DNA of 64,000 bases. It comes from Actinomadura terrae. GTDB lineage: Bacteria > Actinomycetota > Actinomycetes > Streptosporangiales > Streptosporangiaceae. Below are positions 19,832 through 34,296 of this stretch, piece after piece; position 1 is the stretch's first letter, and the number at the start of each line of letters is the position of its first letter. The notes beneath the pieces are model-generated. The model was given only the letters and a program-made list of their open reading frames with translations. It did no database searches and was not told where the DNA came from. Location: NCBI RefSeq assembly GCF_022751215.1, contig NZ_JAICDG010000003.1, positions 868,001 to 932,000 of the forward strand, in the 5' to 3' direction. The position numbers and the translations under genes were made by a program.

Positions 19832-20650
19832 ATGAGCGGCAGCAAGTGGATCACCTTTCTCACCGACTACGGCCTGGCGAACAAGTTCGTCGGCGTGTGC
19901 CACGGGGTGATGGCCGGCATCGCGCCCGAGGCGCGGGTCCTCGACGTGACCCATTTCGTACCGCGCGGGAACATCGCGCACGGCGCAGAGGTCTTCCAGC
20001 AGGCGATCGCATTCCTGCCGACCGGGGTGCACCTGACCGTGGTCGACCCCGGTGTCGGCGGGTCGCGCAAGGCCGTGGCGCTCGTGGTGGGGGAGAACGT
20101 GTTCGTCGGCCCCGACAACGGCCTGCTCCTGCCCGCCGCCGACGTCCTGGGCGGTGTCGACGCGGCGTACGAGCTCAGCGACCCCCGGTTCCACCTGGAC
20201 AATGTCTCCCACTCGTTCCACGGCCGCGACATCTTCTCGCCGGTGGCGGCGCACCTGGCCAGCGGCGTCGCACCCGCCGAGCTCGGGCCTCCCGTCGACG
20301 TCTCCGAACTCGTCCGCCTCCCCGAACAGGTGCGCCGCCTCGCGGACGACACCCTGTACGGCCAGGTCGTGATCGAGGACCGCTTCGGCAATTTGCAGAC
20401 GACGCTCGACATCGGTCTCCTCAAGGAGGCGGGCGTCGCGCTCGGGACCGAGTTCGTCCTCACCGCCGGCGACACCACGGCCGTGGTCCCCTATGTCGAG
20501 ACCTTCTGTAGCGTCGGCGAGGGTGAGTCGCTGGCGCACATCGACTCGGCCGACCGGCTCGCGCTGGCGGTCAACCTCGGCAGCGCGGCGGAGCTGTTCT
20601 CCATGCACGAGGGGGACACGTTCACGCTCACGTACGGCAGCGCCGGCTGA
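19832..20650 (+). CDS. S-adenosyl-L-methionine hydrolase (DUF62, SAM hydroxide adenosyltransferase)
   Basis: 272 residues of the fluorinase/chlorinase/DUF62 superfamily: FLTDYG (Asp12), VDPGVGGSR (Asp72, Arg79) and SHSFHGRDIF (His130). The Asp-Arg-His spacing matches the water-activating triad of DUF62 hydrolases, which split SAM to adenosine and methionine; the halogenase loop is not evident. It is cytoplasmic and follows the DUF2000 gene. It could lower SAM or reset SAM-dependent reactions; its relation to the nearby radical SAM gene is only positional. Confidence 0.86.
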   Translation: MSGSKWITFLTDYGLANKFVGVCHGVMAGIAPEARVLDVTHFVPRGNIAHGAEVFQQAIAFLPTGVHLTVVDPGVGGSRKAVALVVGENVFVGPDNGLLLPAADVLGGVDAAYELSDPRFHLDNVSHSFHGRDIFSPVAAHLASGVAPAELGPPVDVSELVRLPEQVRRLADDTLYGQVVIEDRFGNLQTTLDIGLLKEAGVALGTEFVLTAGDTTAVVPYVETFCSVGEGESLAHIDSADRLALAVNLGSAAELFSMHEGDTFTLTYGSAG

Positions 20651-20725
20651 CGGCCCCTTCCTGACCGACCTGTTCACCTCGGACCATGCGGGCCGGTCCT
20701 CGTCGTTCCCGGGCGCCCGGCGCGG

Positions 20726-21745
20726 TCAGCGGCGCACGGCCAAGGCGAAGAAGCGGTGGTCGGCGTCGTCGTAGCGCTTCAGGTGCCACCCCGTGGAGGC
20801 CAGCAGTCGCACCAGCCGGGTCTCGGCGAGTGGTTCGTCGGGGCGCGGGGTGCGGCCGTGGCGGGCGGCGAGCGCGGCCCGTCCCGAGGGATGGAAGACG
20901 ATCAGTTCGCCGCCGGGCCGGGTGACGCGTGCCAGCTCGGCCAGCCCGGCTGCGGGGTCGGGCAGGTGCTGCACCAGCCCGGCGGCGAAGACCGCGTCGA
21001 ACCGGGTGCCGGTGAAGGGGAGGCGGCGGGCGTCGGCGACGAGCAGGGTGGCGCGGTGCGCGCGGCCGGTCGTCCTGGCGACGGCGAGCATCTCCGGGGT
21101 GACGTCCACGCCGAACACCCGCCCGGTCGGGCCGACGGCGGCGCGCAGTGCGGGCAGCGCACGGCCGGTGCCGCATCCGGCGTCCAGGACGGTCGCGCCG
21201 GGCGGGACGGCGGCCTCACCGACCGCGGCGGCGTAGGCGGGCATGTCGTCACCGAACCTGGCGTCCCAGGTCGCGGCGCGGGGCGCGAAGAACGCCCGGC
21301 TCTCGGCGACGTACCAGTCGTCGTGCCCGGCCAGCCGCGGGACGACGCGGCGGATCACCGGCCAGCGGGTGTCGTTCAGGTCGATCACGATGTCCGCGAC
21401 CTGCTCGGTGTCAGCTTCCGGGGCATGGCGGGTGCGCAGCCGGATCACCACGTCCCACTCGCCCGGCGGCCGGGCGCGCTCCCCGGTGCCCGCCCCGATC
21501 GCGACCGCGCCCGGCTCCCGCGTGATCTCAGGGTCGCCGTCACGCGGCCGGACGCAGCGGCGCCCGGCGGCGGTCAGGTGATCGGCCAGCCGCGCGGCGA
21601 CCGCGCCGGCGTGCCCGCCGCCCTCGACCAGCACGCACACCGTGCCGTCCGGCAGCATCCCGGCCACCCGGTCCAGGACGTCGCGCCAGCGGCCCGCCTG
21701 CTGCTCGGTCATCGACTCCAGCGCCGCCAGGGCATCACTCGTCAT
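20726..21745 (-). CDS. Class I SAM-dependent methyltransferase with degenerate uridine-kinase-like N-terminus
   Basis: 339 residues. The C-terminal half is a methyltransferase: ATVLDAGCGTGRALPAL (motif I), VFGVDVTPEML, and FDAVFAAGLVQHLPDPAAGL. The N-terminal about 150 residues resemble uridine kinase-like proteins (VCVLVEGGGHAGAVAARLAD, EWDVVIRLR), but the P-loop Gly-x-Gly-Lys-Thr is lost, so kinase activity is unlikely. The ATG at 21745 has GGAGG only one base away, so the start is less certain; an upstream ATG at 21841 exists. It is monocistronic and ends facing the SAM hydrolase gene. Substrate unknown. Confidence 0.78.
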   Translation of the reverse strand: MTSDALAALESMTEQQAGRWRDVLDRVAGMLPDGTVCVLVEGGGHAGAVAARLADHLTAAGRRCVRPRDGDPEITREPGAVAIGAGTGERARPPGEWDVVIRLRTRHAPEADTEQVADIVIDLNDTRWPVIRRVVPRLAGHDDWYVAESRAFFAPRAATWDARFGDDMPAYAAAVGEAAVPPGATVLDAGCGTGRALPALRAAVGPTGRVFGVDVTPEMLAVARTTGRAHRATLLVADARRLPFTGTRFDAVFAAGLVQHLPDPAAGLAELARVTRPGGELIVFHPSGRAALAARHGRTPRPDEPLAETRLVRLLASTGWHLKRYDDADHRFFALAVRR

Positions 21746-21834
21746 GCCTCCGATGATGCAGAAGCGCGGGGGAGCGGACCAGCGACCGCCCGCTGTGCCG
21801 GGGTCAGCGGTCGGGCTGATCTGCGAATACGGGC

Positions 21835-21868
21835 TTGACATATATTTTTCCTACCATAAATATAGGAA
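21835..21868 (+). promoter_or_regulatory. Promoter with palindromic operator, sulfur operon 1
   Basis: TTGACA at 21835-21840 is followed by an AT-rich -10 region (TAAATA at 21857-21862, spacer 16). Overlapping the -10 is the inverted repeat TTCCTA-N9-TAGGAA (21848-21868), which contains CTACCA-N6-TAGG and the decamer AAATATAGGA. The same 16-base pattern recurs before the sulfotransferase gene and the decamer before the second ssu operon. A sulfur-status repressor site is inferred. Confidence 0.6.
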
Positions 21869-22054
21869 TATGGCGCACGCACTGACCGTCCGGCGTGTGG
21901 TTGACCACATGCGGCTGGACAGCACTCTCTGTCGCTGATCCGGATCTGCCCTCCCCTCCTCCTCCCCGAGTCCCCCTCCTGCGAGAACCGTCGTCGTGTC
22001 CTGCCCGGACGCGGCGGCCGTCGTCTTGCTCGTTTCGCGAAGGGCCAGTCAGCC

Positions 22055-23101
22055 ATGTCGAGTTCTGTTCCGCACGCCTCCCGGGCGAAAGTCCCACGCC
22101 GCCGGTCACCGCTGGTCTGCGCCGTCATCGCCCTGCTGCTGGGCCTGGCCACCGCCTGCGGCGGGTCGGCCACGGCCGGCGGCGGCTCCGGGCCCGGCTC
22201 GGTGATCAGGCTGAGCGACCCGGGCAACGCGGGTGTGCTCGCCTACGCCAAGCGCGAGAAGATCCTGGAGAAGCGGCTCGAAGCCGTCGGCGCGCGGGTG
22301 CAGTGGGGCGGTTCGTACGCCTCGTTCACGGCGACGATCGACGCGGTGCGGTCCAGGTCCGTGAACGTCCTGGAGGGCGCGATCTCACCGGCCGTGGGCT
22401 ACCTCGCCAACGGTCGCGACCTGCGCATCTTCGCCGCCGCCGACCGTGTCACCGACAAGGCCGCACCCTACGAGGACGGCCTGGTCGTCAAGGCCGGCAG
22501 CCCGGTCAGGACGGTGCGCGACCTCGTCGGCAAGCGCGTCGCCGTCAACAAGGCCGGACGCGGCGAGTACCTGCTGCTGCTCGCGCTCAAGCAGGCCGGA
22601 ATCCCGGCGTCGCAGGTCCAGCGCGTCCACCTGAACCCGGCGCAGGGCGCGTCGGCGTTCGCGACCGGCAAGGTGGACGCCTGGTGGGCGATCGTCGACG
22701 CCTATCCCGAGGTCGTCGCCAAGGGCGCGCGGGTCCTGCTGCACGGCCGCGACCTGCCCGACCGGGACCTCACCATCTTCGCCGCCCGGACCGAGGTGCT
22801 CCAGGCCAACCCGCGCGCCGTCCAGGTCTTCCTGGACGTGGTCCGCGAGCTGACCGAACAGGAGAAGCGCGACCCGCGCAGGTTCCAGAACGTGTTCCTC
22901 GACAAGGGCCCGACCGCCCTGTCCGGCGCGCGGCTGGACGACGCGATCGCCAAGGCCCGCTACCAGTCCGTGCCGCGCGCGGTCACCGACGCCGACGGCG
23001 GGCATGTCGCCGCGGTGGCCGGCCTGTTCCAGGAGCAGGGCGTGCTGCCGAACGCGATCCGGCCCGAGGACGTCCTGTTCAAGCTGGGGGCCGCCCGATG
23101 A
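22055..23101 (+). CDS. ssuA: Aliphatic-sulfonate-type ABC substrate-binding lipoprotein (SsuA-like)
   Basis: 348 residues with a lipoprotein signal: basic leader, hydrophobic stretch and lipobox LATAC (Cys35). The mature part is an NMT1/SsuA-type periplasmic-binding fold (RTVRDLVGKRVAVNKAGRGE, and the hinge-side GKVDAWWAIVDAYPE). It delivers a sulfonate or related organosulfur compound to the permease and ATPase that follow. First gene of a seven-gene operon; its stop overlaps the next ATG (ATGA). The promoter with palindrome is about 190 bases upstream. Confidence 0.85.
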   Translation: MSSSVPHASRAKVPRRRSPLVCAVIALLLGLATACGGSATAGGGSGPGSVIRLSDPGNAGVLAYAKREKILEKRLEAVGARVQWGGSYASFTATIDAVRSRSVNVLEGAISPAVGYLANGRDLRIFAAADRVTDKAAPYEDGLVVKAGSPVRTVRDLVGKRVAVNKAGRGEYLLLLALKQAGIPASQVQRVHLNPAQGASAFATGKVDAWWAIVDAYPEVVAKGARVLLHGRDLPDRDLTIFAARTEVLQANPRAVQVFLDVVRELTEQEKRDPRRFQNVFLDKGPTALSGARLDDAIAKARYQSVPRAVTDADGGHVAAVAGLFQEQGVLPNAIRPEDVLFKLGAAR

Positions 23102-23967
23102 CCGCCGAGATCGCGCCCGACGCCGCGACCGTGCGGCGGCGGCCGGTGGAGGGACCCGTCGACGAGCTGCGTCCGCCGCCGTGGCTGGGGCAGCGCCGGC
23201 GGCGCCCGGCGGTCTCGCTGGCCCTGCGGGTGGCAGTGCCGCTGGCGCTGCTGGTCGCCTGGTGGTGGGGGGCGAGCAGCGGCCGCATCTCGCCGGACGT
23301 CCTGGCCGGGCCGGGAGCGGTGCTGTCCGCGCTGAGAGAGCTGGCCTCAACCGGGCAGCTCGCCGACTACGTGCTCGCCTCGGCGCGCCGGGTGGCCCTC
23401 GGCGTCCTGGTCGGCTGCGGCGCGGGGCTGGTGCTCGGCGCGGCCGCCGGGCTGTCCGCGCTCGGCGAGGAACTCATCGACCTGACCCTCCAGATGAAGC
23501 GGGCGGTGCCGTTCCTGGCGCTGGTGCCGCTGTTCATCTCCTGGTTCGGCGTCGGCGAGACGTTCAAGGTCGCGCTCATCGCGGTCGCGGCGTTCGCGCC
23601 GATGTACGCCTACGTCTACCTGGGCGTGCGCGGCGTCGACCGCAAGGTGGTGGAGGCCGCGCGCGGGTTCGGGCTCCGCGGCGCCCGGCTGGCGCTGTCG
23701 GTGGTGCTCCCGTCCGCGCTGCCCAGTGTGCTGATGGCCCTGCGGATCAGCCTGTCGGTGTCGCTGACCGGGCTGATCGCCGCCGAGCAGCTCGGCGCGA
23801 CCGAGGGCATCGGCTACCTGGTGACGCTCGCCCAGCAGTACTACCGCAACGACTACATGGTGCTGTGCATCCTGATCTACGCGCTGCTCGGGCTGCTCAT
23901 CGACCTGGCGATCAGGGGCCTGGAACGGCTCGCCACGCCGTGGCGCGGGCAGGTGACGGCCCGATGA
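23098..23967 (+). CDS. ssuC: ABC transporter permease, SsuC-like
   Basis: 289 residues with about six membrane segments. The permease EAA loop is EAARGFGLRGARLALSVVLP, typical of the SsuC/TauC/NrtB group. Overlaps ssuA and ssuB by four bases at each end. Forms the membrane channel for the SsuA-like receptor and the ATPase encoded next. Confidence 0.87.
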   Translation: MTAEIAPDAATVRRRPVEGPVDELRPPPWLGQRRRRPAVSLALRVAVPLALLVAWWWGASSGRISPDVLAGPGAVLSALRELASTGQLADYVLASARRVALGVLVGCGAGLVLGAAAGLSALGEELIDLTLQMKRAVPFLALVPLFISWFGVGETFKVALIAVAAFAPMYAYVYLGVRGVDRKVVEAARGFGLRGARLALSVVLPSALPSVLMALRISLSVSLTGLIAAEQLGATEGIGYLVTLAQQYYRNDYMVLCILIYALLGLLIDLAIRGLERLATPWRGQVTAR

Positions 23968-24770
23968 CCCGCGACGGGGACGAGGTGGCGGTGCGGGTCC
24001 GGGGCCTGCGCAAGACGTTCGGTACCAAGACCGTCCTGGACGGGATCGACCTGGAGGTCAGGCGCGGCGAGTTCTTCGCGCTGCTCGGCCCGAGCGGCAC
24101 CGGGAAGACGACGCTGCTGCGCATGCTCGCCGGCCTGGAGCGGCCCGACGCGGGGACGGTGCTGACCGCGCCGCGCGTCACCACCGTCTACCAGGAGCCG
24201 CGGCTGGTGGTGGCCAGACGCGTGCTGGCCAACGTCACGCTCGGGCTGCCGCGTTCGGCGCGGGACAAGGGCAGCCGCATGCTCACCGAGGTCGGGCTGG
24301 GCGGGCGCGAGCGCGCCTGGCCGGCCACTCTGTCGGGCGGGGAGGCGCAGCGGGTGGCGCTGGCCCGCGCACTGGTGCGCGACCCGCAGGTGCTGCTGCT
24401 GGACGAGCCGTTCGCCGCCCTCGACGCGCTGACCCGGCTCCAGGCCCAGGACCTGGTGGCCGAGCTGTGCGCGCGGCACCGTCCCGCGGTCGTGCTCGTC
24501 ACGCACGACGTGGACGAGGCGGTGCGGCTGGCCGACCGGGTCGCGGTGCTGGACGCCGGCGCCTTCGTCGTGGACCGTGCCATCGACCTGCCCCGCCCCC
24601 GCGGCGCGTCGTCGACCGCGTCCGACCCGGCGGTGCTGGAGCACCGCCGTGAGCTGCTGACCCGCCTGGGCGTCCTGTCGCCGCCCGACCGGGTGACCCC
24701 GCCGTCCGGCGAAGTGACCCCGCCGTCCGGCCGATCCGGCCTGACGTCCGACCGAGGAGTGATCGCGTGA
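23964..24770 (+). CDS. ssuB: ABC transporter ATP-binding protein, SsuB-like
   Basis: 268 residues. Walker A GPSGTGKT (42-49), signature LSGGEAQR (123-130), Walker B LLLDEPFAALD, H-loop LVTHDVDEA: a complete nucleotide-binding domain of the nitrate/sulfonate/taurine type. The C-terminal tail has a short VTPPSG tandem repeat not usual for the family. Overlaps both neighbours by four bases. Confidence 0.88.
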   Translation: MTRDGDEVAVRVRGLRKTFGTKTVLDGIDLEVRRGEFFALLGPSGTGKTTLLRMLAGLERPDAGTVLTAPRVTTVYQEPRLVVARRVLANVTLGLPRSARDKGSRMLTEVGLGGRERAWPATLSGGEAQRVALARALVRDPQVLLLDEPFAALDALTRLQAQDLVAELCARHRPAVVLVTHDVDEAVRLADRVAVLDAGAFVVDRAIDLPRPRGASSTASDPAVLEHRRELLTRLGVLSPPDRVTPPSGEVTPPSGRSGLTSDRGVIA

Positions 24771-25795
24771 GCAGTCCGCACAGCAGTGGTGTCGACAAGA
24801 TCTGGTTCACCCGCTGCCCGGTTCCGACCGCCAGCGGCCTCGCGCACAGGCGCGGCGGGCTGGCCGAGGCGTTCGCGCCGTTCGGGCTGGAGGTGGGCGT
24901 CCTTCAGGACGCCGAACCCGAGCTCGCCCGCCACCATTTCGACCACGACCTGCCCGGGCTGTTCCGCGAGGGCGGCAACGTCCCCGCGCTGGCCGCCCGC
25001 AGCGAGGGCGCGCCGACCAGGCTGATCGGGCTGACGTGGATCGAGGAGTGGCAGTCGGTCCTCGTCCGTCCCGGCTCGGGCATCGAAGGCCCGGAGGACC
25101 TGCGCGGCGCCCGCGTGGCGCTGCCCGGCTGGGCCCGGACCAGGGCGCAGAGCTTCCCGCGCGCGATGGCGCTGCACGGCATCAAGGGCGCGCTCACCCA
25201 GGGCGGCCTCACTCTGGACGACGTCACGTTCGTCGAGGTCGACGCCGACCTGTCGCCCTCGGTGGGACGTGACGCGCGCGGCGGACGCATCGCGTGGCCC
25301 GGCCTGGACGAACTCGCCCGCGGCGAGGTGGACGCCGTCTACGTCAAGGGCGCCCGCGCCGCCGAGCAGGCCGCCGCCCTCGACCTCGCCGTCGGCGTCG
25401 ACCTGGACGCCCACCCCGATCCGGCGACCCGCGTCAACAACGGCACGCCGCGGCCGATCACCGTGCACGAGCGGCTGCTGGACGAGCGGCCCGAGCTGGT
25501 GACCGCGTTCCTCGCCGCCACGCTGCGCGCGGCCGACTGGGCGGCCGCCGACCTGGACGGTGTGCGGGGCATCCTCGCCGGGGAGACCCGGTCGGGCGCG
25601 TCCGGCGTGCGCACCGCCTACCGCGACGGGTTCCACCGCACGCTGCGTCCCGACCTCTCGCAGGAACGGCTCGACCTGCTCGTGAAGCAGAAGGACTTCC
25701 TGCTCATCCACGGCTTCCTCGCCGCCGACGTGGACGTCGCGTCGTGGGCGGCGCACGAGCCGCTGCGCGAGGTCACCGAGAGGACGGCGGCATGA
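24767..25795 (+). CDS. DszB-like desulfinase (SsuA-fold, no signal peptide)
   Basis: 342 residues from GTG at 24767 (GTGA overlap with ssuB). It has the periplasmic-binding-protein fold but no export signal. Residues corresponding to the DszB (2-hydroxybiphenyl-2-sulfinate desulfinase) active site are kept: Cys17 in TRCPVP (DszB Cys27), His57 in HHFDHD (His60) and Arg67 in FREGGNVP (Arg70); the His-to-Arg distance of ten is the same as in DszB. The C-terminal LLVKQKDFLLIHGFL parallels the DszB end. It probably releases sulfite from a sulfinate made by the monooxygenases encoded next; the natural substrate is unknown. A cytoplasmic binding protein is the alternative. Confidence 0.72.
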   Translation: MSSPHSSGVDKIWFTRCPVPTASGLAHRRGGLAEAFAPFGLEVGVLQDAEPELARHHFDHDLPGLFREGGNVPALAARSEGAPTRLIGLTWIEEWQSVLVRPGSGIEGPEDLRGARVALPGWARTRAQSFPRAMALHGIKGALTQGGLTLDDVTFVEVDADLSPSVGRDARGGRIAWPGLDELARGEVDAVYVKGARAAEQAAALDLAVGVDLDAHPDPATRVNNGTPRPITVHERLLDERPELVTAFLAATLRAADWAAADLDGVRGILAGETRSGASGVRTAYRDGFHRTLRPDLSQERLDLLVKQKDFLLIHGFLAADVDVASWAAHEPLREVTERTAA

Positions 25796-26721
25796 CCCCG
25801 CCAGCGAGGTTCCTGGTCACGCTGCCGACGGCCGGGCCGGACGCGGTCCCGGCGCCGCTGCCGGAGTTCGTCACCGACACCCGCCAGGGCCGGTACGGGG
25901 CCTTCGACGCGATCGGCGAGGTGGGGCGCGCCGCCGAGGTCGTCGGCTTCGACGGGGTCGTCGCCCCCTTCGCGCCCGACGCGGAGGAGTCGCTGGTGGT
26001 GGTCGCGGGACTGCTGCGCCGCAACCGCTGGATCCACGGCGTCGCGGGCCTCCACCCGGGCATCGGGACCCCGGTGTACGCGGCCAAGCTGTCGGCGTCG
26101 CTGCAACGGTTCACCGGAGACCGGTTCGGCTGGTGGCCGGTCGTCGACCTCCCACCGGCGGCGGCGCGGGCGCACGGCGACTTCCTGGAGGGCCCGGACC
26201 GGTACGCCCGCGCCGACGAGTTCCTCACCATCGCCAAGGGCGTGTGGGCGCAGGAGGACTTCACCTACGAGGGCAGGTTCTTCCAGGTCCTCGCCGGGGG
26301 ATTCCAGGGGCCGCTGGCCGGACGGCGCTTCCCGGCCGTCCACCTGTCCGGCCTCTCCGCCGACGCCTTGGAGCTGTCCGCGAAGCACGCCGACGTCCAC
26401 GTCTTCGACGCGTCCGACGACCTCGACGCGCTCATCGCCGACCTGGGCGAGCGCGCCGCCGAGCACGGCCGGAGCGTCGCCTCCGGTCTGCGGCTGACCG
26501 TGGCGGCGCGCGAGGACGAGGACGAGGCGCGCGGCGTCCGGGCCGTCCCCGAGCACGCCCTCACCGGGTCGTTCGAGCAGGTCGCGGCGGAGTTGCGCGG
26601 CTATGCCGACCGGGGCGTGAGCACGTTCGTCCTGGAGCCGCCGCCGGACGTCGCAGAGATCTACCGGCTCGGGGAGCAGCTGCTGCCCCTCTTCGTTCGG
26701 GAGCACGCCCATGTCGATTGA
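25792..26721 (+). CDS. Short LLM-class flavin monooxygenase
   Basis: 309 residues, shorter than SsuD (about 380). Luciferase-like TIM-barrel signatures: GFDGVVAPF, TPVYAAKLSASLQRFTGDRFG, and GPDRYARADEFLTIAKGVW near the centre. The overall order resembles SsuD/DszA-type FMNH2-dependent enzymes that oxidise C-S compounds. It overlaps the DszB-like gene by four bases and the SsuD-like gene by eleven. It may act on a sulfone or sulfonate before the desulfinase step; inference from neighbourhood. Confidence 0.8.
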   Translation: MTPPARFLVTLPTAGPDAVPAPLPEFVTDTRQGRYGAFDAIGEVGRAAEVVGFDGVVAPFAPDAEESLVVVAGLLRRNRWIHGVAGLHPGIGTPVYAAKLSASLQRFTGDRFGWWPVVDLPPAAARAHGDFLEGPDRYARADEFLTIAKGVWAQEDFTYEGRFFQVLAGGFQGPLAGRRFPAVHLSGLSADALELSAKHADVHVFDASDDLDALIADLGERAAEHGRSVASGLRLTVAAREDEDEARGVRAVPEHALTGSFEQVAAELRGYADRGVSTFVLEPPPDVAEIYRLGEQLLPLFVREHAHVD

Positions 26722-27904
26722 CATCTACTGGCGCATCGGGACGCACGGCGACCAGCCGTCGCTGCGCCGCCGCCTGGTGACCCGCGGCGACTGGTCGCCG
26801 GGCGTGCCCGGCAGCATCACCCCGGGCCTCCGCGAGGGCAGGCCGGACGGGTACAGCCATCTGGACCACATGGCCGACGTCGCGCGCTCCACCGAACTGT
26901 CGGGGTTCGTCGGCGGGCTGCTGCCCTCGTTCCCCTTCACCGACGACCCCTGGGCGGCGGCCGCGAGCCTGGCGCGCGAGACCACCACCTACCGCTTCAT
27001 GATCGCCTTCCAGCCCGGTTTCCTGCACCCGGTGCAGGCGGCGCGGATGTCGGCGAGCCTCCAGCGCGCCACCGGCGGACGCGTCGTCTACAACATCATC
27101 TCCGGCGGCGGCGGCCCCGCCCAGCTGTGGTGGGGCGACAAGGTCGGCCACGACGACCGGTACGCCCGGACCTCGGAGTTCCTCGACGTCCTCAAGGCCG
27201 TGTGGGACGGCGGCCCGGTCACCCACCGCGGCCGCTTCTACCGGGTCGAGGGCGCGGGCCTGCCCGAGCGCCTCGCCGGGCAGCCCTTCCCCGAGATCTA
27301 CTTCTCCGGGTCGTCCAAGGCGGCGATCGAGGCCGCCGGGCGGCACGCCGACTACTACCTGTCGTGGCTGGAGCCGTTCCCCGCGCTGGCCGCCAAGTTC
27401 GACCAGGTCCGCGAGCACAGCGCCGCGATCGGCCGGTCGCCCCGGTTCGCGGTGCGCATCGACGTGCTGGCCCGCGAGACCGAGGACGAGGCGTGGGCGG
27501 AGATTCGCCGCGGCTGGCGGCACGTCGACCCCGAGCAGCTGCGGGGCCCCGAGTCCACCGGCGACTCGGTCGGCTGGCTGCGCAGCTCGCAGTTCATCGA
27601 CTGGCCGGTGCGCGAGCCCCGCGAGCTGGAGGCGAGCCCCAACGTGTGGGGCGGGTTCCACCTGCTGCGCGGCGGTCCCGCGTTCGGGCTGGTCGGCAGC
27701 TACGCGCAGGTCGCCGCCCGGCTCGACGAGCTGATCGCGCTCGGCGTGGACGCGTTCGTCCTCGCCGGCGTGCCGCACCTGGAGGAGGCGCGCCGCGTCG
27801 GCGAGAACGTCCTGCCCCTGCTGCGCGGCCGCCGGCCGGACGGCGCGCCCGGCACGTCCGTCCCCTCTCTCGAAACCCTCGAAGCGAAAGGATCCACCCG
27901 ATGA
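26711..27904 (+). CDS. ssuD: Alkanesulfonate monooxygenase, SsuD-like
   Basis: 397 residues. Family motifs: MSIDIYWRIG N-terminus, TTTYRFMIAFQPGFLHPVQAA, RVVYNIISGGGGPAQLWWGD, and YARTSEFLDVLKAVW. SsuD cleaves alkanesulfonates to aldehyde and sulfite with FMNH2 and oxygen, needing a separate flavin reductase; none is in this operon. Overlaps its neighbours by eleven and four bases. Confidence 0.87.
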   Translation: MSIDIYWRIGTHGDQPSLRRRLVTRGDWSPGVPGSITPGLREGRPDGYSHLDHMADVARSTELSGFVGGLLPSFPFTDDPWAAAASLARETTTYRFMIAFQPGFLHPVQAARMSASLQRATGGRVVYNIISGGGGPAQLWWGDKVGHDDRYARTSEFLDVLKAVWDGGPVTHRGRFYRVEGAGLPERLAGQPFPEIYFSGSSKAAIEAAGRHADYYLSWLEPFPALAAKFDQVREHSAAIGRSPRFAVRIDVLARETEDEAWAEIRRGWRHVDPEQLRGPESTGDSVGWLRSSQFIDWPVREPRELEASPNVWGGFHLLRGGPAFGLVGSYAQVAARLDELIALGVDAFVLAGVPHLEEARRVGENVLPLLRGRRPDGAPGTSVPSLETLEAKGSTR

Positions 27905-28806
27905 CCCGCGTCGGCTACTTCCCCCACAACAACTCGCTCTGGGTGCTGCGGCACCGGGGGATACTGGAGCGCTCGCTGCCGGACGTGGAGTGGGTGGACC
28001 TGCGGTCGCTTCCCGCGGGCGACCGTCCCGCGCCCACGGAGGGCCTGCCCTCCGTGCACGGCGACCACCTGTTCGACGGCGGCTACGACTTCATCGGCAC
28101 GGGCTCCACGCCGCCGGTCACCGCGCAGGCCCGCGGCCACGACATCGTCTACGTGGCGATCTCCGGGCCGCGGGTGGACAACGGGCGGCTGGTCTCCCTG
28201 CCCGGCTCCGGCATCGACTCCCCGGCCGACCTGGCGGGGAAGCGGGTCGCCCTCGGCCACGGCTCCTGGCAGACGACGCTGCTGCTGCTCGCGCTCGACC
28301 AGGCCGGGCTGACCTGGCGCGACATCGAACCGGTCGACGCGGGGAACGAGGGCGCGCAACTGCTCCTGGACGGCAAGGTCGACGCCTGGACCGGCAGCTA
28401 CCCCGCGCTCGCCGCGCTGGAGAGCGAGACGCAGCCGCGGACGCTGATCGAGACCGAGGGGCTGTTCAGCCACCGCTCGCTGTGGTTCACGCGGCGCGAC
28501 TTCGCCGTCCGGCACCGCGACACGCTCGCGGCCATCGTCGGGGCGTTGCAGGAGTCGGACGCCTGGATCCGCGCCAACCCCCGCGAGGCGGCCGCGCTGT
28601 TCGCCGCCGACGACGGCGGCGACCTCGACACGTGGGAGCACGCGCTGCGCGGCCGTCCGTTCGGGCTGCTCCCGGTCAGCGACGACTTCGTCGCCGAGCA
28701 GCAGCGGGCCGCCGACCTGCTGCACGCCAACGGCCTGATCGACCGGAAGATCACCGTCGCCGACGCCGTCCTCCCGGACCTGGCCGATCTGGTCGCCCGC
28801 GACTAG
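27901..28806 (+). CDS. SsuA-like binding-fold protein without signal peptide
   Basis: 301 residues. The sequence matches the SsuA/NMT1 binding fold (GYDFIGTGSTPPVTAQARGH, then SPADLAGKRVALGHGS, and LLLDGKVDAWTG) but starts directly with the first beta strand (MTRVGYFPHNNS) and has no lipobox or leader. The DszB Cys/His/Arg set is absent. It is either a cytoplasmic ligand-binding or enzymatic derivative or an exported protein with a lost signal. Last gene of the sulfur operon; overlaps ssuD by four bases and the convergent eamA gene by 56. Confidence 0.7.
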   Translation: MTRVGYFPHNNSLWVLRHRGILERSLPDVEWVDLRSLPAGDRPAPTEGLPSVHGDHLFDGGYDFIGTGSTPPVTAQARGHDIVYVAISGPRVDNGRLVSLPGSGIDSPADLAGKRVALGHGSWQTTLLLLALDQAGLTWRDIEPVDAGNEGAQLLLDGKVDAWTGSYPALAALESETQPRTLIETEGLFSHRSLWFTRRDFAVRHRDTLAAIVGALQESDAWIRANPREAAALFAADDGGDLDTWEHALRGRPFGLLPVSDDFVAEQQRAADLLHANGLIDRKITVADAVLPDLADLVARD

Positions 28807-29716
28807 CCGACGCGGGACGCACGACCAGCAGCACCCCGGCTCCGGCGACCGCCATGCCCGCGACGGTGCTCGCGGTGAGGCCCTGCCCGAGCAGCGGGAC
28901 GGCGAGCAGCGCGGTCGCCGGCGGCACCAGGTAGAGCAGGCTCGTCGCCACCCCGCCCGAGCCGCGCCGGAGCAGGACGAACAGGAGGATGAGGGCGCCG
29001 ATCGAGTTGACCGTCGCCAGCCACACCAGTGAGCCCAGGGCTTCGGCCGTCAGCGGCAGGCCGAGCCCGCCGTGGACGAGCGCGAGGGGGAAGCAGGTGA
29101 GGGCGGCGCCGATCAACTGGATCGTCGTCCCGGTGCGGAGATCGACGGAGTGGCCGAACCGTTTCTGGTAGAGCGTTCCGGCGGCCAGCCCGACCAGCGC
29201 CACGCCCGTGAGCGCGTACCCGGTGAGCCGGCCGCCGGCGGCCAGCCGCTCGCTCACCGAGAGGGCCACCCCGGTCAGGCCGAGCCCGAGCCCCGCCCAC
29301 TGGCGCCGGGTCAGCCGTTCGGAGAACAGCGGAACCGCGATCGCGGCCACGATGAGGGGGCAGGCACTGAGGATCAGGGCGGACGTCCCGGCGGGGACGC
29401 CGCGTCCCAACCCCAGGAAGACACCGCCGAGCTGCACCGTTTGCAGCAGCGTCCCGGCGACGAGGAGGTGGCCCCAGACGCGGCGGCCGGACGGCCACGG
29501 TGCCCGGGTGGCCAGGGCGAACGAGCCGAGGACGAGGGCGGCGAGCAGGAAGCGCCAGGCCACCAGGGCGAGCGAGTGGCTGCTGCGCGCGCCGATGGAC
29601 CCCGCGACGTAACCGCTGCTCCAGACGGGGACGAACGCGACCTGGACCGCGACCGTCGAGAGGCGTCCGGGCGGACGCCGGTCCGCCCCTCCCGCCCGAC
29701 CCGGATACCCCCTCAA
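28751..29716 (-). CDS. EamA/DMT-superfamily exporter
   Basis: 321 residues with about ten hydrophobic segments, two EamA repeats (VWSSGYVAGSIG and WRFLLAALVLGSFAL in the first; LYLVPPATALLAVPLLGQ in the second). It probably exports a small metabolite such as an amino acid or thiol compound. The best start is TTG at 29716, 14 bases after the stop of the ATPase gene, so it is likely the last gene of the second ssu operon; the ribosome-binding site is poor and translational coupling is inferred. The 3' end overlaps the sulfur operon 1 end. Confidence 0.8.
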   Translation of the reverse strand: MRGYPGRAGGADRRPPGRLSTVAVQVAFVPVWSSGYVAGSIGARSSHSLALVAWRFLLAALVLGSFALATRAPWPSGRRVWGHLLVAGTLLQTVQLGGVFLGLGRGVPAGTSALILSACPLIVAAIAVPLFSERLTRRQWAGLGLGLTGVALSVSERLAAGGRLTGYALTGVALVGLAAGTLYQKRFGHSVDLRTGTTIQLIGAALTCFPLALVHGGLGLPLTAEALGSLVWLATVNSIGALILLFVLLRRGSGGVATSLLYLVPPATALLAVPLLGQGLTASTVAGMAVAGAGVLLVVRPASASRGRPDRPGPGGRRRRR

Positions 29717-29730
29717 GGACAGGCGCCGCT

Positions 29731-30462
29731 CTAGGAGAGGGCGTCGTCCGGGGTGGCCGGGACGCGCAGGAGGGTCAGGAGGCGGCGGCGCAGGGCGGCG
29801 AAGCCGGGGGCGTCCACGGCCCGGGGATGGTCCAGGTCGACGCCGATCGCCTCGACGATGCGGCCGCCGTCCAGGACCAGGAGGCGGTCGGAGAGCAGGA
29901 TCGCCTCATCGACGTCGTGGGTCACCAGGAGCGCCGCGAACCCGTGGGCGGCGCGAAGGCGGGTGAAGAGGGCCTGCATCTTCAGCCGGTTGAGCGCGTC
30001 CAGGGCGCCGAACGGCTCGTCCAGCAGGAGCAGTTCGGGCCGGCGGACCAGGGCGCGGGCGATCGCGACCCGCTGGGACTGGCCGCCGGACAGCTCGGCG
30101 GGCCAGGCGTCGCCGCGATCGGCCAGGCCGACCTCGGCGAGCGCGGCGGCGGCGCGGGACGCGGCCTCCCCGGTGCGGACGCCCAGAGCCACGTTCGCCG
30201 CCACCCGCTTCCACGGGAGGAGGCGGTGCTCCTGGAACACCACGGCACGCGAGGCGGGCACCGACACGGTCCCGGACGCCTCGTCGTCGAGCCCGGCCAG
30301 GATGCGCAGCAGCGTGCTCTTGCCCGAGCCGCTGGCGCCGAGCAGCGCGACCACCTCGCCGCGGTCGATGGCCAGGTCGACCCCGTCCAGGACGGTCGTG
30401 CCGCCGAACGAGCGGCGCACCCCGGCGGCCTCGACTAGGCGGCTCGCAGTCCGCGTCGCCAT
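29731..30462 (-). CDS. ssuB: ABC transporter ATP-binding protein, SsuB-like (second set)
   Basis: 243 residues from ATG at 30462. Walker A GASGSGKST, Q-loop region VFQEHRLLPWKR, signature LSGGQSQR, Walker B LLLDEPFGALD, H-loop VTHDVDEA: a complete sulfonate/nitrate-type ATPase. The start lies 28 bases inside the upstream permease gene. Works with the permease and lipoprotein genes upstream. Confidence 0.88.
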   Translation of the reverse strand: MATRTASRLVEAAGVRRSFGGTTVLDGVDLAIDRGEVVALLGASGSGKSTLLRILAGLDDEASGTVSVPASRAVVFQEHRLLPWKRVAANVALGVRTGEAASRAAAALAEVGLADRGDAWPAELSGGQSQRVAIARALVRRPELLLLDEPFGALDALNRLKMQALFTRLRAAHGFAALLVTHDVDEAILLSDRLLVLDGGRIVEAIGVDLDHPRAVDAPGFAALRRRLLTLLRVPATPDDALS

Positions 30463-31193
30463 GCCAGCAGCCTCCTCTCTCCCATCCGCAGGGCCAGGTC
30501 CGACAGCAGGCCGAGCAGCGCGTACACCAGCAGGCCCAGCACCACGACCTCGGTCTGGGAGAACTCGCGCGCCTCCATCATCATGAAGCCGAGCCCGCTC
30601 TGCCCGTTGACCTGCTCGCCGACGACCAGGCTCAGCCACCCGGCGGAGAACGCCAGCCGCAGCCCGAGGAACAGCGAGGGCATCGCCCCGGGCAGCACCA
30701 CGTGCCGGACGCGTTCCGACCAGGTCAGCCCGCAGGTGCGGGCGGCCTCGACCAGCCGCTCGTCGATGTCGCGGATGCCGGCGTAGGTGTTGAGGTAGAT
30801 CGGGAAGAACGCGCCCAGCGCCACCAGCGTGACCTTCAGCGACTCCCCGATGCCCAGCCAAATGATCAGCAGCGGGACCAGGCCGAGGTGCGGCAGCATC
30901 CGGGCCGCCTGGACGGTCGGGTCGACCAGGTCGTCGCCGGCGCGCACCAGCCCCGCGATCGCGCCGAGGACCAGCGCGACCGTGCCGCCGATCAGCAGCC
31001 CGAGCACGGCCCGTTGCAGCGAGTCGAGCAGCGAGGCCCCGAGCGTGCCGTCCCGGGACAGCCGCCACGCCGCCTCCAGCACCGCACTGGGCGGGGGCAG
31101 CTTGTCCGGGGCCAGGACGCCCGCGCGCGCCGTCCCCTCCCAGACCGCCAGCAGCATGATCGGCGTGGTCAGCCGCCGGACCCGGAGGCTCAC
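30435..31193 (-). CDS. ssuC: ABC transporter permease, SsuC-like (second set)
   Basis: 252 residues from GTG at 31193, which overlaps the stop of the receptor gene (GTGA). About six membrane segments; EAA loop EAARTCGLTWSERVRHVVLP. The first segment (TPIMLLAVWEG) follows a short basic start. Pairs with the adjacent SsuA- and SsuB-like proteins. Confidence 0.86.
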   Translation of the reverse strand: MSLRVRRLTTPIMLLAVWEGTARAGVLAPDKLPPPSAVLEAAWRLSRDGTLGASLLDSLQRAVLGLLIGGTVALVLGAIAGLVRAGDDLVDPTVQAARMLPHLGLVPLLIIWLGIGESLKVTLVALGAFFPIYLNTYAGIRDIDERLVEAARTCGLTWSERVRHVVLPGAMPSLFLGLRLAFSAGWLSLVVGEQVNGQSGLGFMMMEAREFSQTEVVVLGLLVYALLGLLSDLALRMGERRLLAWRRGLRAA

Positions 31194-32140
31194 CTGAAGA
31201 TCCCCGAGTACCGCTCGTCCACCCGGGCCCTCATGTCGACCTTGCCGGGGATCAGGTCCAGCCCGGCGAATCCGTCCGCGATCCTCTGCAACTCGGCGCC
31301 TACGGTGGCGTCCACGGGGGCGAGCGGCTGCGCGCTGCGGGCCAGCGCCCGCCGGGTGGCGTCCTCGGGGATCTTCAGCTCCGGGGCCAGGACCCTCGCG
31401 CGGTCCGCCGGGTTGGCGCGCCCCCAGTCGGTCACCCGCCGGTACTGTTGCAGGAACCCGGTGAGCTGCTCGGCCTTCTCCTTCAGCGCCTCGGGCGAGA
31501 CCAGGACGTACTCGCGGTTGTTGGCGAGCCCGCTCGCGTCCGCGAGGACTCTCACCCCGGGCCGCTCGGCCAACGCGAAGTACGGGTCCCAGATGATCCA
31601 GGCGTCGATCCGGTCGTTGTCGAACGCGGGCCGCCCCTCGGCCGGTTTGAGGTACCGGATCTGGACGTCCTCGGCCGTCATCCCGTTGGACTCCAGCAGC
31701 CGGAGCAGCAGCCAGTGCACGTTGGAGCCCTTGTTGAGCCCGATCGTCCTGCCCTTGAGGTCCCGGAACGACCGGAACCCCCTGCTCTCCTTCACCAGCA
31801 CCGCCTCGCCCCTGGGGACGGGCGCCGAGGTGCCGATGATCTTGAAGTCGACGCGCCCGGCCGCCGCGAAGATCGGCGGGGCCTCGCCGACCTGGCCGAT
31901 GTCGACCGATCCGGCCTTGAGCGCCTCGGTGAGCGCCGGACCGCTCTCGAACAGCGACCATTTCGTCCCCGGCGGCGCCGCGTTCCGCGCCTTGAGCAGG
32001 CTGAGCCCGCCGAACCGCTGGTAGCCGACGCGCAGCGCCCCACCGGACGCCCCGGCCTCCCGCTCACCCCCGCACGCGGTGAGCGCGCCCGATCCGAGCA
32101 GCAGGAAGAGCCCGGTGAGGGCGGCGATGATGCGGCGCAT
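31190..32140 (-). CDS. ssuA: ABC substrate-binding lipoprotein, SsuA-like (second set)
   Basis: 316 residues with lipoprotein signal (MRRIIAALTG, lipobox ALTAC, Cys23). Typical SsuA features: LRVGYQRFGGLSLLKARN, VDIGQVGEAPPIFAAAG, FRDLKGRTIGLNKGSNVHW, DRIDAWIIWDPY. The last matches the aliphatic-sulfonate receptors closely. First gene of the second ssu operon; the AT-rich promoter region is at 32150-32210. Confidence 0.88.
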   Translation of the reverse strand: MRRIIAALTGLFLLLGSGALTACGGEREAGASGGALRVGYQRFGGLSLLKARNAAPPGTKWSLFESGPALTEALKAGSVDIGQVGEAPPIFAAAGRVDFKIIGTSAPVPRGEAVLVKESRGFRSFRDLKGRTIGLNKGSNVHWLLLRLLESNGMTAEDVQIRYLKPAEGRPAFDNDRIDAWIIWDPYFALAERPGVRVLADASGLANNREYVLVSPEALKEKAEQLTGFLQQYRRVTDWGRANPADRARVLAPELKIPEDATRRALARSAQPLAPVDATVGAELQRIADGFAGLDLIPGKVDMRARVDERYSGIFR

Positions 32141-32174
32141 GGGTCCACGCTCCTTGCCGATCGGATCAGCACGA

Positions 32175-32184
32175 AAATATAGGA
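32175..32184. promoter_or_regulatory. Shared AAATATAGGA motif, ssu operon 2 promoter
   Basis: This decamer also occurs at 21858-21867 within the operator of sulfur operon 1. Read on the minus strand it gives CCTATATTT with TATATT as a likely -10 about 35 bases before the ssuA ATG at 32140. A full palindrome is not present here. Confidence 0.4.
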
Positions 32185-32327
32185 CAAAACCGATCAGTTG
32201 ACTAGGTTATTGGGTCGCTCGGCTTGGGCCTGCTCCCCGGCCGTCGCGCCCTCCGGGATCGACCGCCTCGGGCGCGCGGCCATCCTGGACCCGCCGGATG
32301 CCTGGACCTCGACCCCCGGGGCATGCC

Positions 32328-32333
32328 TATTAT
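32328..32333 (+). promoter_or_regulatory. -10 element of a leaderless promoter
   Basis: TATTAT ends six bases before the ATG at 32340, and no ribosome-binding site precedes that codon. This is the spacing of actinobacterial leaderless transcripts whose first base is the start codon. Confidence 0.5.
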
Positions 32334-32339
32334 TTCGAT

Positions 32340-33251
32340 ATGGAATTGGGGGAAACTGACCCGCGGGTCGCCGCTCTGCTGCCGCGCCCGGACCGTTCGG
32401 TCGTCGCCGTGGAACCGCCGGGTGACGGCGACGGGTACTGGGCTGGAGCGCCCAGCGCCGTCGAGAGCGAGGGGTGGATCTACCTGGCGTACCGGTTGCG
32501 GCGGCCCATCGGGAAGGGCCGCGGCTACGCGGTGGTGGTCGCCCGCTCCGCCGATGGCGAGCGCTTCGAGCCGCTGGTCACGATCGGCAAGGACGCCATG
32601 GAGGCCGAATCCCTGGAGCGGCCCGCCCTCGTCCGGACCGCCGAGGGAACGTGGCGGCTCTACCTGAGCTGCGCCACGCCGGGAACCAAGCACTGGCGCG
32701 TGGAGGTGCTCCAGGCCGCCGCCCCGGACCGGTTCAGCGCCCGCGACCGGCGGGTCGTCCTGCCCGGCGACGAGAAGACGGGCGTGAAGGATCCGGTGAT
32801 CGTCCGGCACGGCGGCCGCTGGCACCTGTGGGCCTCATGCCATCCGCTGGCCGACGCGGCCGAGGCCGACCAGATGACCACCGAGTACGCCACCAGCGCC
32901 GACGGGCTGGAATGGATCTGGCACGGGACGGCTCTCAGCCCCCGGCCGGGCGAGTGGGACGCCCGGGGCGTGCGGGTCAGTGCGGTGCGCTTCGCGCCCG
33001 ACGGGATCGTGGCGGCCTATGACGGCCGGGCCAGCGCGGCCGAGAACTTCGAGGAGCGCACCGGCTTCGCCCTCGGCGACGACCCCGCCGCGCTCTCGGC
33101 CGTCGGATCCGCCCCGTGGGCGTCCTCGTCCCACCACGGCGGCGGGTTCCGCTACCTGGACGCCCTCACCACTCAGGACGGTCGCCTCCGTCTGTTCTAC
33201 GAGGTGACTCGTGCGGACGGAGCGCACGAGCTGCGTACCGAGTTGCGCTGA
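32340..33251 (+). CDS. Glycosidase-like beta-propeller protein
   Basis: 303 residues, no signal peptide. The pattern of blade-like segments (APSAVESEGWIYLAYRLRRP, RPALVRTAEGTWRLYLSC, KDPVIVRHGGRWHLWAS, YATSADGLEWIWHGTAL) matches five-bladed propellers of the GH43/GH130-like superfamily. The specific family and catalytic residues cannot be assigned with confidence; KDPVI and EYATS hold plausible acids. The start is set at 32340 by a leaderless-type -10; an in-frame ATG at 32298 has no better signal. It is divergent from the second ssu operon and convergent with the sulfotransferase. Confidence 0.65.
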   Translation: MELGETDPRVAALLPRPDRSVVAVEPPGDGDGYWAGAPSAVESEGWIYLAYRLRRPIGKGRGYAVVVARSADGERFEPLVTIGKDAMEAESLERPALVRTAEGTWRLYLSCATPGTKHWRVEVLQAAAPDRFSARDRRVVLPGDEKTGVKDPVIVRHGGRWHLWASCHPLADAAEADQMTTEYATSADGLEWIWHGTALSPRPGEWDARGVRVSAVRFAPDGIVAAYDGRASAAENFEERTGFALGDDPAALSAVGSAPWASSSHHGGGFRYLDALTTQDGRLRLFYEVTRADGAHELRTELR

Positions 33252-33264
33252 CCGGTCCCGTGTC

Positions 33265-34257
33265 TCAGCGCGCGTGCGGACGGCCGTTGCGGGCTTGGCG
33301 CTGGCCGTCCGGCCGCGCGCCCACCCGCCCGCCGGAGGCCTCCTTCGGCTCCAGCCAGTCGCCGAAGTCCTCGCCGGTGACCTTCTCCAGCAGCTTGACG
33401 TCGGCCTCGAACAGGGGGATGAGGGCCTCGCGCTGCTCCCAGGTCAGCGGCCGCCGGGCCGGGCCGTTGCGCTGGAGCGCGCGTTCCAGCGGCGCGGCGA
33501 CCCGGGTGGCCAGGTCGCCGGGCAGGGCCGCGCCCGCCGCCACACCGGCCCGCAGCATCCGCGAAAGGACGCGATGACGCGTCGTGCGGCCGGGATGCAC
33601 GGTGACGTTCTCCCGCGGGACCTCGGTGAGGATGCCCGGCTCGACGTTCAGGAACGAACAGATGCGGTCCAGCGTCGGCGCCGGCCGCTCCAGCAGTTCG
33701 CGGTACCGGAAGACCAGGACCTGCTCGCGGGGGAACAACCCGTACAGGTGCTCCAACTGCTCGCCGTACCGGCCCAGCCGGACGTAGTGCCAGAAGGCCG
33801 CCCAGCCCGCGTCGATCCGCCGGTCCTCCTCCCGGCAGGCGAGGACGACGTCGTCGATGGGCTCCAGCCCGGCCGACCACAGATGCGTCCAGTTGGAGTG
33901 GGCCCGCTCCACCGGATCGCGCAGAACGGCGATCAGCCGGGCCTCGGGGATCAGCTCGTGGATGCGCCGCTGGGCGGCCCGGTCGTACAGGTAGAACGGG
34001 GTGGACTCCCCGCGCAGCGCGCCGGGCGGGGCATCCGCGAACAGCGCCTCGTACTCCGCCCTGCGCCAGACGTGCTCCCGGTAGGTCTGCGCGTCACCCG
34101 GCCCTCCCCGGGTCGGAGGGGGCGCGCCGCCGGTCAGGAAGAACTTGGGCTCCTTCACCGCCGACAGGTGGAGCCCGGGGTGACCGGCCAGCGCCGCGTG
34201 CAGCGCGGTGGTCCCCGTCTTCGGAGCACCGATCACCAGGAAGTCCGGCAGGGCCAT
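33265..34257 (-). CDS. PAPS-dependent sulfotransferase
   Basis: 330 residues. LVIGAPKTGTTALHAAL near the N-terminus is the 5'-phosphosulfate-binding loop (PKTGTT); AVLRDPVERAHSNW is the 3'-phosphate-binding region with the conserved Arg and Ser. This is the NodH/heparan-sulfotransferase-like bacterial family, transferring sulfate from PAPS to a carbohydrate or other hydroxyl. ATG 34257 lies five bases from AGGAGG; GTG 34260 is too close. It sits beside two sulfonate-uptake operons and its promoter shares the CTACCA-N6-TAGG pattern. Acceptor unknown. Confidence 0.86.
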   Translation of the reverse strand: MALPDFLVIGAPKTGTTALHAALAGHPGLHLSAVKEPKFFLTGGAPPPTRGGPGDAQTYREHVWRRAEYEALFADAPPGALRGESTPFYLYDRAAQRRIHELIPEARLIAVLRDPVERAHSNWTHLWSAGLEPIDDVVLACREEDRRIDAGWAAFWHYVRLGRYGEQLEHLYGLFPREQVLVFRYRELLERPAPTLDRICSFLNVEPGILTEVPRENVTVHPGRTTRHRVLSRMLRAGVAAGAALPGDLATRVAAPLERALQRNGPARRPLTWEQREALIPLFEADVKLLEKVTGEDFGDWLEPKEASGGRVGARPDGQRQARNGRPHAR

Positions 34258-34296
34258 CACGTCCTCCTAGCGCGACCTCGACCAAGTGCACTATAT

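Follow-up and report, generated by a model that had tools for sequence, protein, structure and literature searches.

The stretch of DNA analysed here (the window) comprises 64,000 nucleotides of Actinomadura terrae (contig NZ_JAICDG010000003.1, positions 868,001 to 932,000); the genome that carries it measures 8.96 Mb in 18 contigs. Between positions 22055 and 28806 the window contains seven genes on the plus strand, encoding a predicted importer of the sulfonate type, a predicted DszB-like desulfinase, two luciferase-like proteins (LLMs) and a signal-less protein with the SsuA fold (Table 1). The seven overlapping open reading frames (ORFs) claimed in a preliminary description of this DNA were located where it had placed them. 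All six junctions overlap, by 4, 4, 4, 4, 11 and 4 bases in order from gene 1 to gene 7. The family assignments of that description agreed with searches of Pfam, NCBIfam and PDB sequences, in which both LLMs (genes 5 and 6) were nearest to SsuD/MsuD. It had also rightly stated that no flavin reductase is present among the seven genes: Pfam and NCBIfam searches found none, and thus no SsuE as in an ssu operon. None of the NCBIfam models listed for the seven proteins (for gene 3, the best 25 of 196 matches) reached its curated cut-off. Judging from its signal peptide, gene 1 would encode a lipoprotein; Cys35 is kept in at least 97% of the cassette sequence set.

Table 1. Predicted genes and upstream features of the seven-gene locus (positions in the window; E, expectation value)
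Feature	Position	Strand	Description
TTGACA box	21835-21840	+	First base 35 bases upstream of the leader ATG
Leader ORF	21870-21938	+	22 codons, MAHALTVRRVVDHMRLDSTLCR, ends LDSTLCR; candidate cysteine-responsive leader peptide
Gene 1	22055-23101	+	SsuA/NMT1-type receptor lipoprotein (predicted); signal peptide with conserved Cys35; Pfam NMT1 E 1.6e-14; TIGR01728 E 6.5e-33, below cut-off
Gene 2	23098-23967	+	SsuC-type ATP-binding cassette (ABC) permease; BPD_transp_1 E 7.8e-28; top NCBIfam match SsuC, below cut-off
Gene 3	23964-24770	+	SsuB-type ABC ATPase; ABC_tran E 9.7e-28; top NCBIfam match aliphatic sulfonate ATPase, below cut-off
Gene 4	24767-25795	+	DszB-like desulfinase (predicted); C17, H57, R67, G70 correspond to DszB C27, H60, R70, G73
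Gene 5	25792-26721	+	Short LLM, candidate inactive partner subunit; Bac_luciferase E 1.7e-31
Gene 6	26711-27904	+	SsuD/MsuD-like monooxygenase (predicted), dependent on reduced flavin mononucleotide (FMNH2); phmmer against E. coli SsuD E ~9e-66
Gene 7	27901-28806	+	Signal-less SsuA-fold protein, no Cys, no internal Met; TIGR01728 E 1.5e-42, below cut-off

Loci of relatives were chosen by a match to gene 4, which was found in 55 of 250 sampled genomes of the window's own family, including the window's genome, and in 56 of 401 genomes of the family of a Rhodococcus genome. The own-family set consisted of 60 regions from 64 match rows: the window itself and a fragment of 71 residues were excluded, and of two matches that were split in two only the first piece was kept. 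For the Rhodococcus family 20 loci were picked from 57 match rows, and a scan of named genomes contributed the best 80 of at least 576 confirmed loci. A full cassette was defined as matches to all seven genes on one strand, at most 9 kb from gene 4, with at least 33% identity (at least 60% for gene 6 and at least 55% for gene 7). By this definition the cassette was present in 93 of the 160 fetched loci, in the three gene orders 1234567, 1234756 and 4123567. It was found in 30 of the 60 own-family regions (18, 4 and 8, respectively), in 45 of the best 80 named-genome loci (44 and 1 by order) and in 18 of the 20 Rhodococcus-family loci (17 in the order 1234567 and one in 4123567); the three sets overlap in some organisms and the counts are not independent. 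The grouping of the seven families exceeds chance, and the DszB-like and LLM genes do adjoin the transporter, as the preliminary description had expected. The desulfinase, the two LLMs, the sulfonate-type importer and the cytosolic binding-fold protein thus appear to be one travelling unit across many genera of Actinomycetota.

Very similar operons are present in Actinomadura litoris, A. chibensis and A. soli, with a gene 4 identity of 94-96%. Among the 79 loci of order 1234567, overlaps were frequent at the junctions up to gene 6 (34 to 68 of 79, with start codons chosen by script), and the gap between genes 6 and 7 exceeded 50 bases in 47. This gap contains a class II aldolase-like gene in a Rhodococcus locus and an IclR-type regulator in an Actinokineospora locus. 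The 35 loci without a full cassette among the best 80 named ones belonged to Pseudomonas (22), Acinetobacter (8), Methylophilus (1), Microbispora (2) and Nocardia (2), both Nocardia loci being shorter stretches without gene 1 or gene 7. The class II aldolase-like gene was seen beside the cassette in Rhodococcus (locus L127, 11360-12064) and also beside the DszB-like gene in Acinetobacter (locus L163, 9019-9732), the importers of the two loci being different; with the Acinetobacter protein as query, and without a positive control, no such gene was found in the genome of the window.

Judged by its active-site residues and its predicted fold, gene 4 belongs to the DszB family, and the label given to it in the preliminary description is borne out. 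The active site of DszB consists of Cys27, His60, Arg70 and Gly73 (PMC12168087). Their counterparts in gene 4, assigned from a printed alignment, are all present and are kept in 90, 89, 90 and 89, respectively, of 90 distinct cassette sequences including the window. The top PDB sequence match was DszB (2de2, E 4.6e-15, residues 9-334, phmmer). The AlphaFold model (predicted local distance difference test, pLDDT, 88.8) gave DszB chains (2de2/2de3) at Foldseek ranks 1-3, the first (2de2) with an E-value of 2.5e-22, followed by SsuA with 3.9e-14. The window's gene 4 product contains a single Cys, the one aligned with the catalytic Cys. In some distant gene 4 relatives outside the full cassette (loci L077, L081, L082, L083 and L085) the Cys is missing at the aligned motif, and these are probably binding proteins or other enzymes; because such relatives lack it, the catalytic Cys in the cassette proteins is informative. 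A literature search for DszB-like proteins or DszB homologs returned nothing under those names, perhaps owing to the wording and the limits of the library.

MsuD, used here as a guide for gene 6, binds methanesulfonate through the backbone of residue 299 and through W195, R225 and R296; alanine variants at these last three positions gave no measurable sulfite (PMC8234197). Its flavin and dioxygen contacts include T49, A75, R77, N104, V106, H123, R126, Y127, S177, S178 and L193 (PMC8234197). Residues were transferred to genes 5 and 6 via printed HMMER alignments. In gene 6, W219, R249 and R320 as well as A99, N128, H147, R150, Y151, S201, S202 and L217 were present in all 89 distinct sequences, with S73 replacing T49 of MsuD in 85 of them; position 77, aligned with Cys54 of the E. 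coli protein, was Thr in 89 of 89. At the positions of the gene 6 Trp/Arg/Arg, the sulfone enzyme SfnG (8t0u) has Asn/Asn/Asn in an alignment read by eye, and gene 6 is therefore closer to sulfonate than to sulfone enzymes. Against the SsuD equivalog model TIGR03565, gene 6 scored 256.2 bits (cut-off 518.2) and gene 5 124.5 bits. The score of gene 6 against the SfnG model TIGR04021 was 138.4 bits, under the cut-off of 382.95; an assignment as an SfnG-type sulfone enzyme was rejected on this score and the three residues. The predicted site favours anionic sulfonates over thiophenes and sulfones. Of the substrates named in the preliminary description (a sulfonate, sulfone or thiophene-type compound), only the first fits the Trp/Arg/Arg of gene 6, the sulfone and thiophene types being disfavoured for this protein.

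Gene 5 differs from gene 6 at most of these positions. The sulfonate-binding Trp (W195 of MsuD), the dioxygen-pocket Asn (N104) and the flavin-phosphate His (H123) are all lost, each being found in 0 of 89 sequences. N104 is mostly replaced by Arg or Gln and H123 by Gly (78 of 89). T49 is replaced by Tyr or Phe in 82 of 89, A75 by Glu or Gly and S177 mostly by Thr. Arg is retained at R225 in only 38 of 89; R126, Y127 and S178 are retained in 84, 83 and 78. In the window, gene 5 has 13 residues in place of the lid segment of gene 6, and no residue at R296. The corresponding stretch of gene 5 has at most 23 residues in 30 of the 89 sequences, 41 to 93 in 54 and an intermediate length in 5, while the comparable stretch of gene 6 has 61-67 residues in 87 of 89. 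As far as a noisy alignment with predicted lengths of 179 to 689 residues can tell, the lid is lost in the lineage of the window's gene 5, shortened in others and partly kept in most. The short LLM, taken for a monooxygenase in the preliminary description, does belong to the LLM family (Bac_luciferase), but a role as an independent oxygenase is improbable with Trp, Asn and His lost in 89 of 89. It is probably an inactive partner of gene 6; since Group C substrate sites vary widely, it may still have a different activity. LuxA/LuxB provide an analogy for such a pair of a catalytic and an inactive LLM subunit.

The gene 7 product starts with MTRVGYFPHNN and has no signal peptide, as was also the case in 13 orthologues inspected. 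In a Foldseek search with its model (pLDDT 86.2) SsuA came top and DszB eighth. Because Cys is absent in 88 of 90 sequences, a Cys of the DszB type is unavailable, and gene 7 is a candidate for cytosolic substrate binding or for another enzymatic role.

Of the 2254 residues of the seven proteins, 16 (0.71%) are Cys or Met other than the initiator; the mean of 32 crude gene calls from other parts of the window is 2.35%. Genes 5 and 7 were lower than all 32 background proteins, genes 1, 4 and 6 lower than 31, gene 3 lower than 28 and gene 2 lower than 21; the window's gene 5 has no Cys and only the initiator Met. For genes 1, 4 and 6 the single exception, and the poorest of the background proteins in Cys and Met, was a flavin mononucleotide (FMN) reductase at 50.1 kb (0.50%). 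A comparable sulfur-sparing pattern was described in sulfate-starved IGTS8 (PMC8557817).

Alignment of the upstream regions of related loci revealed a short ORF ahead of gene 1 (Table 1), which the preliminary description had not listed. A pattern written from the peptides of this type occurred upstream of 23 of the 93 cassette loci and in the window. A six-frame scan of the window and the 160 loci, 5.24 million codons in total, gave 24 matches, all of them upstream of cassettes, a count that shows specificity only, the pattern being derived from the same sequences. Of the single-base codon differences, 379 of 751 (50%) were synonymous in frame, against 211 of 762 (28%) and 118 of 703 (17%) in the shifted frames, counted in related and thus not independent pairs among 18 distinct copies. 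In all 18 copies the Cys codon is TGT; in the window's leader it lies two codons ahead of the stop. TGT is rare: in 20 genes of the window it occurs 8 times and TGC 88 times. Of 10 related upstream regions, 9 have TTGAC at the corresponding alignment position and the tenth has it elsewhere. From its spacing, the TTGACA box would place the transcript start at the start codon of the leader ORF, which would make the transcript leaderless.

Cys leader peptides without obvious terminators were noted upstream of mycobacterial cys operons in 2005 (PMC1262725) and seen again by ribosome profiling (PMC4633059), and cysteine-dependent attenuation was reported for M. smegmatis (Canestrari 2020, as cited in PMC9031893). 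The window's leader resembles the mycobacterial leaders of the Ms5788A type (as cited in PMC9031893) in being a short ORF at the presumed transcript start, with Cys near the stop, upstream of a sulfur operon. It differs from them in having one Cys instead of a run and in lacking a match to the Cys leader model NF042933, against which the peptides of two relatives scored 16.9 and 15.4 bits (cut-off 45). A partly conserved CCTACC...TATAGG motif (21850-21866), likewise present upstream in loci L092-L101 and possibly an operator, lies downstream of the TTGACA box and ahead of the leader ORF. The called start of a divergent methyltransferase ORF (20726-21841, minus strand) overlaps the TTGACA box, for which reason its true start is probably further in.

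We propose, with a probability of roughly 0.7, that the seven genes constitute a bds-type operon for scavenging sulfur during sulfur starvation, combining import, oxygenation and desulfination with a partner (gene 5), a carrier (gene 7) and a Cys leader. From the gene set, its order and conservation, the active-site residues, the predicted fold, the low Cys/Met content and the conserved leader ORF, all of which were computed, we infer the substrate, the sequence of steps, what genes 5 and 7 do and the response to cysteine. The compound taken up by genes 1-3 would be an organosulfur anion, most likely an organosulfonate or a sulfinate. In the cytosol gene 6, provided with FMNH2 by a reductase encoded elsewhere, would oxygenate a sulfonate-like substrate to sulfite or a sulfinate, gene 5 serving as its partner and not as a second oxygenase. 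Gene 4 would free sulfite from a sulfinate by the DszB mechanism, and gene 7, with its SsuA fold, would bind the substrate in the cytosol and hold it or pass it on. The sulfite would then enter assimilation. In Actinomadura, translation of the leader ORF with its single TGT Cys codon would tie expression to the cysteine supply. Coupled import, oxidation and desulfination under sulfur limitation had been suggested in the preliminary description, and the conservation of the cassette, the DszB residues and the Cys/Met-poor proteins support it. The part played by sulfur limitation gains further support from Gordonia and Rhodococcus clusters of the same gene order, which rise when sulfate is replaced (PMC3868597, PMC8557817).

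Several observations weigh against this proposal. The leader pattern was not found at 70 of the 93 cassette loci, and the window's peptide matches no NCBIfam model. Scans of 21700-22100 detected neither a consensus sigma-70 promoter nor a terminator, and the RNA folding of the leader region was not unusual (z -0.69). Rfam gave no match at the gathering threshold in 20500-33500; with no Rfam match, terminator or unusual fold, a classical attenuator is without structural support. Genes 2 and 3 are not markedly poor in Cys and Met. Gene 6 departs from MsuD at R77, V106, H227 and S299, where it has Gln, Ile, Asp and Pro, respectively; mutation of the H227-equivalent residue of SsuD caused little or no change (PMC8234197). 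The likeness of the window to the bds cluster (KC831580) and to IGTS8_peg4799-4806, described below, is one of gene order as read from locus tags, and the result obtained with bdsABC points to benzothiophene, while the site of gene 6 is of the sulfonate type. Finally, if gene 6 already released sulfite from a sulfonate, the need for a desulfinase would be unexplained, and genes 4 and 6 may act in parallel.

Two such parallel outlets behind a shared importer, gene 6 for sulfonates and gene 4 for sulfinates, are a possible but less probable arrangement. It would agree with the sulfonate site of the one and the sulfinate site of the other, and neither product would clearly feed the other enzyme; the tight overlaps and the conserved order, however, equally fit one route. 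Another way to read the locus is by the roles proposed for bdsABC of Gordonia terrae C-6 (PMC3868597), similar to the 4S pathway: gene 5 would oxidise thiophenic sulfur as DszC does, gene 6 would open the sulfone to a sulfinate as DszA does, and gene 4 would desulfinate. Extracts of E. coli with bdsABC converted benzothiophene to o-hydroxystyrene, with reduced nicotinamide adenine dinucleotide (NADH), FMN and DszD required (PMC3868597), the gene order fits bds by locus tags, and gene 4 carries the DszB active site. We nevertheless consider this route unlikely for the window, given the loss of the dioxygen-pocket Asn, the flavin-phosphate His and the sulfonate Trp from gene 5 in 89 of 89 sequences and the sulfonate-type Trp/Arg/Arg of gene 6 as against the Asn/Asn/Asn of SfnG; moreover, a petroleum heterocycle would hardly be the natural substrate of a cassette present in many soil actinomycetes. 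That gene 4 is a signal-less binding protein which merely retains DszB-like residues, as its Pfam and NCBIfam matches to binding-protein models only and the occurrence of the signal-less SsuA-fold protein of gene 7 in the same operon might suggest, is very improbable in view of the near-invariant C17, H57, R67 and G70, the lone Cys at the catalytic position and an SsuA E-value eight orders of magnitude weaker than that of DszB.

Within the proposed scavenging operon, the proteins could further be parts of one desulfurising machine, in which a catalytic SsuD-like subunit is paired with an inactive LLM whose lid is being lost, and the SsuA-fold protein of gene 7 has evolved to carry the substrate or to work as a second lyase alongside the DszB-like enzyme, all under the single-TGT leader. 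We put this forward as a rather doubtful, tentative idea; no description of such a machine (SsuD-like protein with a dead LLM, SsuA-fold carrier and TGT leader) was found in the literature search. The functions of genes 5 and 7 and of the cysteine leader can now be tested directly.

As to the source of reduced flavin, the preliminary description had pointed to the FMN reductase at 50.1 kb. This protein (50116-50718) belongs to the CE1759 family (271 bits, cut-off 175.9), and its gene overlaps that of a CE1758-family LLM (48998-50119; 717.9 bits, cut-off 479.1), both on the plus strand; NCBIfam names CE1758/CE1759 as a duo. Being paired with an LLM of its own, it was rejected as a dedicated partner of the operon. 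It could still serve the operon, and it is very poor in Cys and Met; against this stand its own LLM and the many other flavin reductases of the genome, which has 9 matches to PF01613 and 12 to PF03358, 9 of the latter above the cut-off. An operon without a reductase is ordinary, because several monooxygenases of Acinetobacter baylyi use one shared flavin reductase (PMC13352529) and DszD is encoded on the chromosome, apart from dsz on a plasmid (PMC8557817).

Downstream of the operon and convergent to it, a second SsuABC-type importer is encoded on the minus strand (29731-32140), with an SsuA-like protein above its NCBIfam subfamily cut-off, a permease and an ATPase; genes similar to it flank the operon in locus L092. 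Also near the sulfur genes, a sulfotransferase-family protein (Pfam Sulfotransfer_3 and Sulfotransfer_1) is encoded at 33265-34260 on the minus strand.

Among the closest known systems is the bds cluster of G. terrae C-6. Table 1 of PMC3868597 lists GTC6_01585-01620 as a binding protein, a hypothetical protein, an alkanesulfonate monooxygenase (bdsC), an FMNH2 monooxygenase (bdsB), a desulfinase (bdsA), an ATPase, a permease and a binding protein, all induced 29-54 fold on benzothiophene versus sulfate in reverse-transcription quantitative PCR (PMC3868597). Read backwards, these tags give the order of the window's seven genes, and by their numbering the genes would be adjacent. Unlike the window, the cluster has an extra hypothetical gene, GTC6_01590, which in this reading separates bdsC from the last binding protein, and bdsABC alone is named as the operon in the paper (PMC3868597). 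The 24 bases of the bds forward primer (PMC3868597), searched in the 401 genomes with up to 3 mismatches, gave two matches with 3 mismatches, and neither 3-kb locus matched the seven genes. Compared with 27 loci, the forward primer had 9-13 mismatches and the reverse primer 7-11 where comparable, with no near-match of both; since the primer comparisons gave no cassette match, they provide no sequence-level link to KC831580. In Rhodococcus qingshengii, IGTS8_peg4799, 4801, 4802 (SsuA/DszB), 4804 and 4806 were raised in dibenzothiophene culture (PMC8557817). Their consecutive numbers read SsuA, (4800), SsuB, SsuA/DszB, (4803), SsuD, (4805), SsuA, one number more than the window's genes; 4800, 4803 and 4805 stand outside Table 1 of that paper and would be identified by position (PMC8557817). 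With these two clusters matching the order, the claim of the preliminary description that a desulfinase and this type of importer were never combined does not hold.

The other systems share single parts with the window. Gene 4 shares its four active-site residues and its predicted fold with DszB, but for genes 5 and 6 SsuD/MsuD is a much better match than DszA, and an ABC importer belongs to the window's unit and not to dszABC of the 4S pathway. DszC is of the acyl-CoA-dehydrogenase type (PMC8557817), and Pfam found no such protein among the seven; the DszA and DszC partners of a dsz operon are thus not encoded here. With ssuEADCB/msuD the window shares the importer type and the W195, R225 and R296 of MsuD in gene 6, but it adds genes 4, 5 and 7, has no SsuE, and its gene 6 stays under the SsuD equivalog cut-off. 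The A. baylyi cluster (L163) likewise combines a DszB-like protein with an SsuD-like LLM and an ABC importer, in the order DszB-like gene, aldolase-like gene, SsuD-like LLM and importer. It differs in having two permeases, a fused ATPase and a large receptor, which read as Dpp/Opp-type from the translations, in the extra class II aldolase-like gene, and in the absence of a gene 5 or gene 7 match from the 17-kb locus. Matching clusters had thus already been reported in Gordonia and Rhodococcus; what is added here is the leader ORF, the predicted sulfonate-type site of gene 6, the degenerate gene 5 and the Cys/Met-poor proteins. If sequence bears it out, bdsABC of Gordonia would be part of a general sulfur-scavenging cassette, probably not one primarily for fuel desulfurisation.

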